Source: Streptomyces sp. NBC_00442 (lineage in GTDB: Bacteria; Actinomycetota; Actinomycetes; Streptomycetales; Streptomycetaceae). From it: a stretch of 64,000 bases of DNA. Where the stretch lies: assembly GCF_036014195.1 (NCBI RefSeq), contig NZ_CP107918.1:1426001-1490000 (forward strand), given 5' to 3'. The notes below the pieces were generated by a model that was not told where the DNA came from, did no database searches, and worked only from the letters and a program-made list of their open reading frames with translations. Position 1 is the first letter of the stretch, and every line of letters starts with the position of its first letter. A program made the translations under genes and the position numbers. Shown piece by piece: positions 1,498-6,722 of the stretch.

Positions 1498-2730
1498 CTA
1501 TACGGCATCGCGTTCGACCGGACAGCTCATGCACCGCGGGCCTCCCCTCCCCCGGCCCAGTTCGCTGCCCCGGATCTCGATCACCTCGATGCCCTCCTTG
1601 CGCAGATGCGTGTTGGTCGTCACATTGCGCTCGTACGCGACGACCACCCCCGGCTCGACGGCGAGCACGTTGCAGCCGTCGTCCCACTGCTCGCGCTCCG
1701 CGGAGTGCACGTCCTGGGTGGCGGTGAGCACCCGGATCCGGTCGAGGCCGAGGGCCGCCGCGATCGCCCGGTGCATGTGCTCCGGCGGATGGTCGGTGAC
1801 CTTGAGCTCCTGCTCGCCGGCGCCCGGCTCGATCGTGTACGAGCGGAGCATGCCGAGGCCCGCGTACTGAGTGAAGGTTTCTTCGTCGACCATCGTCATC
1901 ACCGTGTCGAGGTGCATGAACGCCCGGCGCTTGGGCATGTCGAGCGCCACGATGGTCTGCGCCGAACCCGCCGCGAACAGCCCGCGGGCCAGCATCTCGA
2001 CGGCCTGCGGGGTGGTCCGCTCGCTCATCCCGATCAGCACCGCCCCGTTGCCGATCACCAGGACGTCACCGCCCTCGATCGTCGAGGGGTAGTCGCGCTG
2101 ACCCTGCGACCAGATGTTGAACGGGCCCGCCTCGGCGCCCCTGAACAGCGGGTGGTGCCGGTAGATCGCCTCGAAGTGCACGGTCTCGCGCTGCCGGGCC
2201 GGCCAGCGCATCGCGTTGATCGAGACACCGTCGTAGATCCATGCGGAGGTGTCGCGGGTGAAGAGGTGGTTGGGCAGCGGACCGAGCAGGAAGTCGTCCA
2301 GGTCCATCGCGTGGAAGCGCACCGACGTGGGCTCCGGATGGCCCTCCAGGAACTCCCGTTTGGTCATCCCGCCGACCAGCGCCTCCGCGAGATCCGCGTC
2401 CGGCAGGTCGTCGAACGCCGCCCGCAGATGGTCCGTCGCGAGCGGCCCGTACTCCTTCTCGTCGAAGACCCGGTCGAGGACGAGCGCGCGGGCCTGCGGG
2501 ATCCCCAGCGACTCGCGCAGCAGGTCCCCGAAGAGGTGCACTTCGACCCCTCGGTCGCGCAGCACGTCGGCGAACCCGTCGTGCTCCTGTCTGGCCCGGC
2601 GCACCCACAGCACGTCGTCGAAGAGCAGCGCGTCCTTGTTGCTGGGCGTGAGCCGCTTCAGCTCCAGGTCCGGCCGGTGGAGTATGACGCGGCGCAGCCG
2701 CCCTGCCTCGGAATCGACATGGAATCCCAT
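1498..2730 (-). CDS. arcA: Arginine deiminase
   Basis: A 410-residue enzyme hydrolysing L-arginine to citrulline and ammonia, the first step of the deiminase pathway. Visible landmarks are the N-terminal LRRVILHRP segment, [22 protein letters not shown] with an active-site His/Asp pair, and the C-terminal GGPRCMSCP carrying the nucleophilic cysteine. The frame is open further upstream, but that part is proline/arginine-rich out-of-family sequence; the ATG at 2730 opens the conserved [14 protein letters not shown] start. It heads an arcA, carbamoyltransferase, permease set on the minus strand. I could not find a convincing ARG box in front of it. Confidence 0.95.
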
Positions 2731-2939: not shown

Positions 2940-4028
2940 TCAGAGGCGGGGGTCGACCGGTTCCGACTCCAGCGCCAGCACCGCGAAGACCGCCTCGTGG
3001 ATCCGCCACAGCGGCTCACCGTCGGCGAGGCGTGCGAGCGCTTCGAGGCCGAGCGCGTACTCGCGCAGCGCCAGCGAGCGTTTGTGTCCGAGCGAACGCT
3101 GCCGCAGCCGGTCGAGGTTGTCCGGGCGCGTGTACTCGGGACCGTAGATGATCCGCAGGTACTCGCGGCCGCGCACCTTGATGCCGGGCTGGACGAGCCG
3201 GCCCCGGCCGTCGCGGGCCAGCGCCTGGAGCGGTTTGACGACCATGCCCTCGCCGCCCGCGCCGGTGAGCTCCAGCCACCAGTCCACGCCGGCCCGCACC
3301 GAGGCCTCGTCGCCGGTGTCCACGACCAGGCGGCGGGTGCGCTGGACCAGTCCCGTCGCATCGTGCTCGGCCAGCCGGTCGAGCCGGGCCAGCTGCTCGT
3401 CGTGGGGCACCCCGGCGAAGCTGCGGCCGTGTCCCGCAAGGATCTGGAAGGGCGCGATCCGTACACCGTCGAGCCCGTCCGTGGTCCAGCAGTAGCGCCG
3501 GTAGGCCTGGGTGAACGCTGCGGCGTCGGCGGCGCGTTCACGCTGGTGGCCAAGGAGCTCCGCCACCTCCACACCTCGGGCCGACGCTCTTTCGAGCGCC
3601 TGGACGGCAGCCGGGAACACGGCCCCCGACGCGGCGCCCACCGCGGCGTACTGCGAGCGCAGCAGCCCCGACGCCTTCAGCGACCACGGCATCAGCTCGG
3701 CGTCCAACAGCAGCCAGTCCGTGGCGAGTTCGTCCCACAGCCCGGCTGCGGTCACCGCCGTCCGCAGCCGCCCGAGAACCTCCTCGGTGAGGGCCGCGTC
3801 GTCGAAGAACGGCCGTCCGGTCCGGGTGTGCAGCACCCCGGTCGCTCCGCCCGCGCCGAACCGCTCCCGTGCCACCTCCGTGTCGCGGCAGACCAGCACC
3901 ACCGCCCGCGAACCCATGTGCTTCTCCTCGCACACGACCTGGGCGACGCCGTCCTTCCTGTACTGCGCGAACGCTTCCGCCGGGTGTTCGAGGAAGCCGT
4001 CCTGCGCCGAGGTCGCCGTCGGCGCCAT
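2940..4028 (-). CDS. Stand-alone RNA ligase module of polynucleotide kinase-phosphatase Pnkp (kinase and phosphatase domains missing)
   Basis: The 362-residue frame matches the C-terminal adenylyltransferase/ligase domain of bacterial Pnkp. Nucleotidyltransferase motif I with the AMP-accepting lysine is EEKHMGSRA near residue 35; later come [22 protein letters not shown] (motif IV) and [18 protein letters not shown] (motif V). Full Pnkp is about 850 residues with kinase, then phosphatase, then ligase; here nothing of the first two remains. Pnkp-like sequence (RRLLTYLPPT) continues upstream of the ATG in frame for about ten codons and then changes abruptly to Hen1 sequence in another frame. 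No good ribosome site precedes the ATG at 4028, so translation would need coupling to the overlapping Hen1 frame. The ligase frame itself is undamaged. Confidence 0.85.
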
Positions 4029-4804
4029 CGTCGGAGGCAGGTAGGTGAGCAGCCTCCGAGCCGCTCCATCGCCTGGCGGGCCAGGCCGCCGCGCCGCGCG
4101 AGGTACCGGCTGGTGATCAGCTTCCGCTCGGGGTGGTCGGCGAGCCAGCCGTCACCGGCCCGCAGCAGCTTGTCCACCTCGTCCGGCGCGACCCAGTAGT
4201 GCTTGGCGTCGTCGAGCACGGGCAGCAGGACGTACAGCTGCCGCAACGCGTCGGCCAGTCGCAGCTCGCCTTCGAGGACGAGGCGCACATACCGCGAGTC
4301 GCCCCACTGCGGGAACTGCCCGTCCAGCGGTATGGGTTCGGCGCTCACCGTGTCCCATCCGAGCGGCCCGAACAGCTGGTGCACGAGGTCCGCGCCGCCG
4401 CGCGCGGGCAGCGACGGCACCTCGATGCGGAGCGGCATCGACATCGCGGCCCGCTCCGGCATCGCCGCGCACACCCCGCGCAGTGCACTCTTGAAGACGG
4501 TCGACATGGCGACCGACATCAGCGACGAGGCCGCATAGGGACGGTCGTTGACGTACTGCGCGAGCGCCGTGTCCGGTGCGCCGCCGCGGCCCTTCCCCTG
4601 CCCGCGCCGGACCAGCGCGATCGGATCCACCTCCAGGAGCAGCGCGGCCGTGCAGCGCTCGGCGGTCGCCTCCGGGTAGAGGACGTGCGCGGTGCCGTGG
4701 GAGGTCGAGAAGCGCTGCGCGTTGTCGGGATGCTTGTGCAGCAGGAAACCGAGGTCGGTCGCGGGGCGCTCAGGGGTGCCGGTGGTGGTGATTGCCAGGA
4801 ACAC
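3752..4804 (-). CDS. Truncated Hen1: N-terminal domain kept, methyltransferase domain lost, out-of-frame tail
   Basis: Hen1 2'-O-methylates the RNA 3' end at the break during Pnkp repair, and its N-terminal half is known to activate the Pnkp ligase. From the GTG at 4804 about 250 residues match that N-terminal half: PATDLGFLLHKHP, YPEATAERCTAALLLEVDP, AQYVNDRPYAASSLMSVA, FPQWGDSRYV, LPVLDDAKHYWV and ITSRYLARRG. Just after QAMERL (about 4055-4060) the Hen1 similarity stops where the methyltransferase domain should begin. The frame then runs about 100 codons out of frame through the Pnkp ligase to a stop at 3752. The start is chosen by homology (VFLAITTTG); its ribosome site is weak. Deletion of the 3' half of hen1 and the 5' half of pnkp explains the arrangement. 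Confidence 0.82.
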   Translation of the reverse strand: MFLAITTTGTPERPATDLGFLLHKHPDNAQRFSTSHGTAHVLYPEATAERCTAALLLEVDPIALVRRGQGKGRGGAPDTALAQYVNDRPYAASSLMSVAMSTVFKSALRGVCAAMPERAAMSMPLRIEVPSLPARGGADLVHQLFGPLGWDTVSAEPIPLDGQFPQWGDSRYVRLVLEGELRLADALRQLYVLLPVLDDAKHYWVAPDEVDKLLRAGDGWLADHPERKLITSRYLARRGGLARQAMERLGGCSPTCLRRWRRRRPRRRTASSNTRRKRSRSTGRTASPRSCARRSTWVRGRWCWSAATRRWHGSGSARAERPGCCTPGPDGRSSTTRPSPRRFSGGCGRR

Positions 4805-4851: not shown

Positions 4852-5790
4852 CTACCCACGCATGCCGTGGATCCGCGCCGCCACCTGGGCGATCAGGGCC
4901 GGCCCGACCCGGCAGCACCCTCCGACGAGCCGCGCCCCGGACGCCGTCCACTCATCGGCCCGCGCCGCGTCGAAGCTCACGTCGCCCGTCCAGCGACGGC
5001 GCTCCGCGTCCCACCGCTCGCCGCTGTTGGGGTAGACCACCACGGGCTTGCCCGAGGCCGATGCCGCGAGCGGCACCGCCCGGCCCGCGTCAAACGGGGT
5101 GCAGCAGTTCGCCCCGACGGCGATGACCTGGTCCCGTCCTGCGGCCAGACCGAACGCCTCGGCCAGGTCCTGCCCGGCCCGCGTGCACCCGCCCTCGATG
5201 CTGTACGAGAGCCACACCGGCACCCCGCAGCCCTCGACCGCCCGCAGCAGCGCCTCCGCCTCGTCGATGTCGGGCACCGTCTCCAGGGCCAGCACATCGG
5301 GCTCCTCGGCCACCAGCGCCTCGATCCGGGGCCGGTGGAAACGCTCCAGCTCCCGCACGCTCAGCCCGTACCGTCCCCGGTACTCGCTGCCGTCGGCCAG
5401 GAAGGCGCCGTAGGGACCGACGGACGCCGCCACCCAGACGCCGTCCGCCGATCCTCCGGCCGAATCCTCCGCTTGCGTCAACTGGCCCGCGGTACGGGCT
5501 AGTTGAATGCTGGAGGCCATGAGACGTCCGGCCTCGTCACGGCTCAGGCCCCGGCGAGCGAACCCTTCGAACGTCGCCTGATAGCTGGCCGTGGTCAGGA
5601 CTCGGGCGCCCGCCCCTACATACGCCGCGTGTGCGGTCCGGATCTGCCCCGGGTCGTCCGCCAGCAGCCGGGCCGACCACAACGCGTCGCTCAAGTCGCA
5701 GCCCTGGTCGCCCAGTTGGTTGGACAGACCGCCGTCAAGGACCACCGGCCCCCGCGCGAGGGCCGCGGCGAGCGTCCGGGCGGGCCGCAC
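4852..5790 (-). CDS. mmuM: Homocysteine S-methyltransferase
   Basis: A 312-residue zinc-dependent methyltransferase that moves a methyl group from S-methylmethionine (or AdoMet) to homocysteine to give methionine. Visible are the N-terminal VVLDGGLSNQL, the first zinc cysteine in GANCC, and the C-terminal GGCCRVGP with the paired zinc cysteines. GTG at 5790 is the start; it lies two bases after the stop of the upstream oxidoreductase gene, so the two are probably co-transcribed and translationally coupled. It ends 47 bp before the Hen1 remnant. Confidence 0.93.
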   Translation of the reverse strand: MRPARTLAAALARGPVVLDGGLSNQLGDQGCDLSDALWSARLLADDPGQIRTAHAAYVGAGARVLTTASYQATFEGFARRGLSRDEAGRLMASSIQLARTAGQLTQAEDSAGGSADGVWVAASVGPYGAFLADGSEYRGRYGLSVRELERFHRPRIEALVAEEPDVLALETVPDIDEAEALLRAVEGCGVPVWLSYSIEGGCTRAGQDLAEAFGLAAGRDQVIAVGANCCTPFDAGRAVPLAASASGKPVVVYPNSGERWDAERRRWTGDVSFDAARADEWTASGARLVGGCCRVGPALIAQVAARIHGMRG

Positions 5791-5792
5791 GG

Positions 5793-6722
5793 TCAGGCCC
5801 CGGTCAGCTGGGTCAGCACCTGCGCCGAGATCAGTTCGAGATGGTCCAGGTCGTGGAGGTCGAGCAGTTGCAGGTAGATGCGCGACGAGCCGGTCGCCTC
5901 GTACTTGCCGATCTTCTCGACGACTTCGGCGGGCGAGCCCGCGAGGCCGTTGGCCTTGAGTTCCTCCACGTCCCGTCCGATGGCCGCCGCGCGACGGGCC
6001 ACCTCCGCGTCGTCCTTGCCGACGCAGACCACCAGCGCGTTGGAGTACACGAGGTCGTCCGCCCTGCGCCCGGCGGCTTCGGCGGCCGCCCTCACCCGGG
6101 TGAACTGCCGTTCGCTGTCCTCGATGGAGGCGAACGGGATGTTGAACTCGTCGGCGTACTGCGCGGCCAGGCGCGGGGTGCGGGTCGCCCCGTGCCCGCC
6201 GATGAGGACGGGCACCTTGGCCTGCGCGGGCTTGGGCAGCGCGGGTGAGTCGCTCAGCTGGTAGTAGGTGCCCTGGTAGTCGAAGGTCCGGCCCACCTCG
6301 GTGGCCCAGAGCCCGGTCACGATGGCCAGCTGCTCCTCCAGCCTGGCGAACTTCTCCTTCGGGTAGGGAATGCCGTACGCCTTGTGCTCGTCCTCGAACC
6401 AGCCCGCGCCCAGGCCGAGTTCGACCCGGCCGCCGGACATCTGGTCGACCTGGGCGACCTGGATGGCGAGGACGCCCGGCAGGCGGAACGTACCCGCGGT
6501 CATCAGCGTGCCGAGGCGGATGCGGTTGGTCTCGCGGGCGAGCCCGGCCAGGGTGATCCAGGCGTCGGTCGGGCCCGGCAGCCCGTCGGCGGTCCCCATC
6601 CGGAGGTAGTGGTCGGAGCGGAAGAAGGCGTCGAAGCCGAGGTCTTCGGTGGCCTTGGCGACGGTCAGGAGGGTGTCGTAGCCGGCGCCCTGCTGGGGTT
6701 CGGTGAAGATGCGAAGATCCAT
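5793..6722 (-). CDS. LLM-class (luciferase-like) flavin-dependent oxidoreductase, TIGR03560-like
   Basis: A 309-residue TIM-barrel oxidoreductase of the F420/FMN luciferase-like family. It starts with MDLRIFTEPQQGAGYDTLL and contains FDAFFRSDHYLRMG, IRLGTLMTAGTFR, LGAGWFEDEHKAYGIPYP and PVLIGGHG, all usual for this group. The start at 6722 is supported by a GGATGGAGCC ribosome site; the frame upstream is non-conserved. Its substrate cannot be told. The downstream mmuM gene begins within two bases of its stop, so they form an operon. Confidence 0.9.
   Translation of the reverse strand: MDLRIFTEPQQGAGYDTLLTVAKATEDLGFDAFFRSDHYLRMGTADGLPGPTDAWITLAGLARETNRIRLGTLMTAGTFRLPGVLAIQVAQVDQMSGGRVELGLGAGWFEDEHKAYGIPYPKEKFARLEEQLAIVTGLWATEVGRTFDYQGTYYQLSDSPALPKPAQAKVPVLIGGHGATRTPRLAAQYADEFNIPFASIEDSERQFTRVRAAAEAAGRRADDLVYSNALVVCVGKDDAEVARRAAAIGRDVEELKANGLAGSPAEVVEKIGKYEATGSSRIYLQLLDLHDLDHLELISAQVLTQLTGA

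Follow-up and report, generated by a model that had tools for sequence, protein, structure and literature searches.

What is left of an RNA repair operon that has kept its first and last modules, the N-terminal domain of Hen1 (Hen1-N) and the ligase domain of Pnkp, and has lost the modules between them: a ligase that still works, or the residue of a broken system? The original prediction had left both answers standing, a fresh pseudogene pair or a minimal ligase. The former fits better and the latter comes out weaker than proposed, because the ligase has no usable ribosome-binding site, hen1 overruns its start, the stop/start overlap of the two genes is gone, and the modules that were kept are the outermost ones. 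We suggest that the locus is a young, probably inactive remnant of the Pnkp-Hen1 operon, a reading that we hold to be reasonably probable.

An internal deletion in place

The window, by which we mean the whole 64,000-nt stretch of DNA analyzed, corresponds to positions 1,426,001-1,490,000 of a single-contig chromosome of 7.73 Mb, and its nearest named relatives, judged by the hen1-pnkp locus, are Streptomyces. The parts of the remnant operon are listed in Table 1. The hen1 frame matches Hen1_L (PF12623) over profile positions 2-241 of 242 with 370.9 bits, and the ligase frame matches PNKP_ligase (PF16542) over positions 14-377 of 377 with 565.4 bits; given these scores, chance is no issue for the domain matches. 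The residues VFLTI at the GTG start of hen1 are also read in most of the intact relatives inspected, and we take the lysine of the EEKHMGS motif to be the residue responsible for nucleotidyl transfer in the ligase.

Table 1. Coordinates within the window of the remnant operon and its neighbors.
Feature	Position	Strand	Description
Upstream neighbor, homocysteine S-methyltransferase family	4852..5790	-	PF02574; same neighbor in SDr-06
hen1 5' remnant	4058..4804	-	From the GTG start to codon 249, with the whole of Hen1_L, the ligase-activating domain; 88% identical to SDr-06
Deletion junction	4053..4057	-	2,225 bp of SDr-06 missing; comparison with SDr-06 and seven further relatives
hen1 out-of-frame overrun	3752..4057	-	101 residues, 29 of them Arg; stop at 3752-3754; from translation
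pnkp 3' remnant, frame of the ligase (adenylyltransferase) domain	2940..4055	-	Residues 482-852 of SDr-06 Pnkp
First ATG/GTG/TTG in the ligase frame	4026..4028	-	No Shine-Dalgarno pairing upstream
Presumed nucleotidyl-transfer lysine codon (EEKHMGS)	3921..3923	-	K45 of P0001; invariant in 25/25 aligned rows
Downstream neighbor, arginine deiminase	1498..2730	-	PF02274; SDr-06 has it at the same position, 95% identical

Homology to Hen1 ends at codon 249 (position 4058) and homology to the ligase restarts at about 4055, within about 2-5 bp and in the -1 frame, in agreement with the original prediction of a switch from Hen1 to the Pnkp ligase in a different frame within about 5 bp. A few bases at the junction, GGA, can be assigned to neither side when SDr-06 and the seven further relatives are compared. 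A simple microhomology deletion was rejected: CGGCT is common to both sides, yet the joined sequence keeps extra bases. Hen1 had been described as intact through its N-terminal domain and as stopping there; the first part of this description holds, whereas the frame in fact stays open past the junction into the overrun given in the table. The ligase frame is open upstream as far as a stop at 4154 and contains no ATG, GTG or TTG before 4028. With that ATG as its start the ligase ORF covers 2940-4028 (362 aa), as had been stated, and it is slightly shorter than the domain, matching PF16542 from position 23, where the match of the intact protein P0257 begins at position 1.

In a tree of 79 Hen1-N plus ligase sequences the nearest to the window was that of Streptomyces sp. 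SDr-06 (locus L052), with a path length of 0.29 and an SH-aLRT of 97 for the pair. The two share the gene order Lux - MmuM - hen1 - pnkp - ADI - OTC, with genes for a luciferase-like protein and a homocysteine methyltransferase upstream and for arginine deiminase and ornithine carbamoyltransferase downstream. In SDr-06 hen1 has 510 codons (the Hen1 reference in the domain comparison has 499 codons, 11 fewer) and overlaps pnkp by ATGA, the stop of one gene overlapping the start of the other, and the points that adjoin in the window lie 2,225 bp apart. The extra sequence consists of codons 250-510 of Hen1, with the methyltransferase domain, and codons 1-481 of Pnkp, with the kinase (AAA_33) and metallophosphatase domains (SDr-06 numbering); all three domains are absent from the window's locus. 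The window operon has lost 2.2 kb by an internal deletion in place. A single event within the ancestral hen1-pnkp operon would have removed this stretch and joined the remainder out of frame; it was probably recent relative to the split from the nearest sequenced species, and may have originated by end joining.

That the Hen1 methylase and the Pnkp kinase and phosphatase are gone, as had been claimed, holds for the locus. No second Pnkp copy was found in the chromosome, where the 845/852-aa query strongly matches only the window's ligase; its other match is weak and confined to the phosphatase region (E 2e-8, 45% over 75 residues). The Hen1 methylase query likewise found no close homologue in the chromosome, only three weak matches with E 7e-5 or worse and 27-35% identity. 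Set beside the intact Pnkp-Hen1 operon, the window's version is a direct descendant, at the same locus and in the same gene order, with domains 87-88% identical to those of SDr-06, but it is without the methylase, the 5'-kinase and the 2',3'-phosphatase, its remnants are out of frame, and its ligase has no ribosome-binding site.

Distribution of the junction among relatives

The junction was sought in 80 named loci, the best 80 of at least 560 confirmed relatives, all from species other than the window's own, and none of them (0/80) shares it. Both genes are full length in 77 of the 80, with open frames of at least 430 and at least 780 codons, and the ends of the Hen1-N and ligase matches lie 2,129-2,438 bp apart in the 78 loci that have both. 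Three loci are exceptions. At L115 intact Pnkp sequence continues upstream of the ligase to the contig edge. Locus L080 (2843-7131), from Streptomyces sp. NP-1717, has pnkp without an adjoining hen1, and the 5' end of pnkp shares sequence with a frame, taken from stop to stop, for a divergent serine recombinase (Resolvase) of 587 aa. At L129 (Streptomyces phaeofaciens) codon 64 of the ligase match in pnkp is an in-frame stop (6190-6192).

Among the matches listed from 295 genomes, of which the window's is one, no match other than that of the window itself spans the query, and none of the best 120 proteins listed for the joined 620-aa query is a Hen1-N-ligase protein with this junction. The ligase domain itself is widespread: PF16542 is matched in 363 of 392 Streptomyces genomes, in 360 of them over the family cut-off, and is without a match in the other 29 (27 of the 380 genomes of good quality). 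In a survey at the level of titles and abstract openings, a natural Hen1-N/ligase remnant was not named in any title; two papers published in PNAS in 2012 reportedly have the Hen1-N/Pnkp ligase as their subject.

Expression, selection and the case for a minimal ligase

The Shine-Dalgarno duplex at ATG 4028 is calculated at +1.3 kcal/mol, a value matched or bettered by 99% of 3,000 random 30-mers, as against -14.3 kcal/mol at the intact pnkp start of SDr-06. The measure is a rough one: the accepted starts of mmuM in the window (-5.2) and of hen1 in SDr-06 (-5.5) lie close to the average for random sequences, -4.2. Pairing is weak, too, at the start of hen1 in the window (-2.5 kcal/mol). In addition, the window's hen1 frame runs 277 nt past the ligase start, at the place where the intact operon has its stop/start overlap. 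The cell would still be able to make Hen1-N, which, to judge from the translated frame, would carry a foreign Arg-rich tail of 101 residues. With no ribosome-binding site and the stop/start coupling to hen1 lost, little or no ligase would most likely be made. The operon would no longer be able to heal 2',3'-cyclic-P and 5'-OH ends or to methylate them, and a loss of function appears to be the result.

The sequences of the two pieces are less decisive. There are no stops or frameshifts in the 620 codons of both remnants, which bears out the earlier statement that both frames are undamaged. Calculated separately for the two pieces against SDr-06 (NG86), dN, dS and their ratio were 0.074, 0.509 and 0.146 for the ligase and 0.063, 0.295 and 0.215 for Hen1-N, both ratios lying inside the range of four neighboring genes (0.077-0.269) and neither clearly raised. 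Lineage counts polarized with six outgroups for the ligase gave N/S of 30/46 in the window and 14/36 in SDr-06 (Fisher p 0.25), those polarized with five outgroups for Hen1-N gave 16/30 and 12/10 (p 0.19), and the same test on the neighboring genes gave p values of 0.07-0.79, none significant. At columns conserved at 97% or more, the window has changed 3 of 224 in the ligase (rank 7 of 82) and 1 of 147 in Hen1-N (rank 21 of 80), which is no excess of odd residues; partial matches and stop-bearing sequences had been left out of the conserved-column and selection sets. The end branch of the window (0.17; SDr-06 0.12, median 0.075) is longish but not extreme. Thus neither conserved columns nor lineage counts give a sign that both parts are decaying, and relaxed selection was not detected by odd residues, by polarized counts and NG86, or by end-branch length, although a young lesion would show none either. 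The lack of decay suggests either a young deletion or the maintenance of both pieces; as far as such comparisons go, undamaged frames, low dN/dS and conserved columns would be expected of a working pair and of a young pseudogene alike.

The choice of modules could itself be read as a sign of selection. However, the stretch between Hen1-N and the ligase makes up 55% of the operon (SDr-06 coordinates), and for about 30% of breakpoint pairs placed at random within the operon both would fall between the outer modules. That these two modules survive together is thus no strong argument for selection. A clean removal of all three other modules is rarer. The 5' breakpoint coincides exactly with the end of the Hen1_L match, and the ligase domain is slightly clipped at the other side, its profile match beginning at 14, or at 23 with the ATG start.

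The main alternative is a natural minimal RNA ligase, in which Hen1-N and the Pnkp ligase would assemble as in the structures 4drf and 4e6n and would seal 3'-OH/5'-P RNA ends without healing or methylation; we consider it unlikely. Hen1-N would hold the insertion module of the ligase open, and substrates could include the cuts of metal-dependent nucleases. Nucleases of this kind, such as PIN-domain toxins, leave 3'-OH/5'-P ends, and the chromosome has one PIN-domain and one RtcB match, an observation that bears weakly on this reading. Both domains are complete and conserved, and the retained parts are, as the original prediction had it, those that form an RNA ligase in known systems: by sequence match they are almost the same two pieces as the chains found together in 4drf and 4e6n (4dqz for Hen1-N). 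The Pnkp ligase is reportedly activated by the N-terminal domain of Hen1, which locks the insertion domain of the ligase (PMC4411300).

The solved structures, however, are of constructs, and the ligase chain of 4drf begins about 44 residues before LLTYLPPT, whereas the first start codon of the window's ligase lies after this motif and its Hen1-N would bear the long tail. The residues YLPPT, which would be lost with the ATG 4028 start, are nearly invariant, and all four solved Pnkp ligase sequences matched start at least 13 residues before them. On the other hand, in an AlphaFold2 prediction from 25 sequences (mean pLDDT 82.5) the Met encoded by ATG 4028 opens the first strand, and this start would therefore cost no secondary-structure element; residues 1-9 of the predicted fold, those lost, have no secondary structure, and the mean pLDDT over residues 1-10 is 57. 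What weighs against a working pair is, besides the shortened N terminus, the lack of a Shine-Dalgarno sequence for the ligase, the overlapping frames and the Arg-rich tail on Hen1-N, and that the same arrangement was found in no second lineage. Moreover, the Hen1-N remnant is not among the best 120 proteins listed in its own search and is therefore apparently uncalled as a gene on the contigs on which the 362-aa ligase ORF is recorded (as P0123), perhaps owing to its overlap with the ligase.

A fuller version of the minimal-ligase reading, which we find quite doubtful, is that one deletion reduced an RNA repair system of four activities to a two-protein ligase, in which Hen1-N would be a pure activator with a basic, possibly RNA-binding tail and 3'-OH/5'-P breaks would be sealed directly. 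If functional, the pair would be a natural counterpart of the crystallized Hen1-N/Pnkp-ligase pair, and would make Hen1-gated ligation testable in vivo apart from end healing and methylation. A ligase that is a separate protein working with Hen1 is also described for the Pnkp1-Rnl-Hen1 complex (PMC4411300). That complex differs from the window's pair in keeping the kinase, phosphatase and methylase, and the sequences are weakly similar (37.5 bits, window ligase to Rnl). If the pair is instead inactive, as is more likely, the window would provide one precise case of how a widely kept Streptomyces operon can be dispensable in some lineages and be lost through varied lesions.

Assembly, frameshifting and other lesions of the operon

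A different kind of explanation would place the fault in the assembly, collapsed or with a false indel at the junction; the operon would in reality be intact or encode an in-frame Hen1-N-ligase fusion. One indel could indeed bring both pieces into one frame, but we judge this explanation very improbable. There are records of the 362-aa ORF that begins at ATG 4028 on two contigs, the longest of 47,549 bp and thus not the 7.7-Mb contig, so that a one-off collapse is unlikely as far as contig records go, even though these contigs may derive from other assemblies of the same strain. Had the operon been intact or in frame, a longer protein should, moreover, have been called, and no longer fused protein is among the best 120 listed for the fused query; homopolymers at the junction are of at most 2. 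That -1 frameshifting from the hen1 frame into that of the ligase yields a fused protein is extremely improbable: both frames are open from 4151 to 3755 and the ligase frame, which is the -1 frame, stays open on the upstream side of the junction, but the shared stretch has no strict X XXY YYZ slippery heptamer.

Returning to the remnant as a young and probably inactive one, lesions of the same operon are seen in other lineages. A protein of S. xanthochromogenes (P0243, 560 aa, on one contig) is an in-frame fusion of Hen1, with its N domain and part of the methylase, to the ligase. Like the window's, it results from an internal deletion of the operon, an independent one; it differs in its breakpoints, in being in frame, and in lacking positions 1-156 of the ligase profile, where it resumes at 157 and is thus without the catalytic lysine. 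Records from S. mirabilis (P0151) and S. chitinivorans (P0177) have a fragment of the Pnkp kinase joined directly to the ligase, with the phosphatase missing. In two further Streptomyces genomes, G006 (L178:4264-11509) and G025 (L179:3070-11697), pnkp is split at the same place in the kinase domain (...VVDAT / N). Together these records suggest that the hen1-pnkp operon has been broken repeatedly, and not always in a way that spares the ligase, although some of them could be assembly errors.

The inserts in G006 and G025, of about 7.2 and 8.6 kb, each encode a tyrosine-recombinase-like protein of about 510-520 aa and a protein with a weak DUF6381 match, and the G025 insert also carries a DDE transposase. 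The insert looks like a site-specific element that targets pnkp. Of the 246 Streptomyces genomes searched, 29 have relatives of the recombinase (E <= 1e-60), and in G006 and G025 the recombinase gene lies in pnkp.
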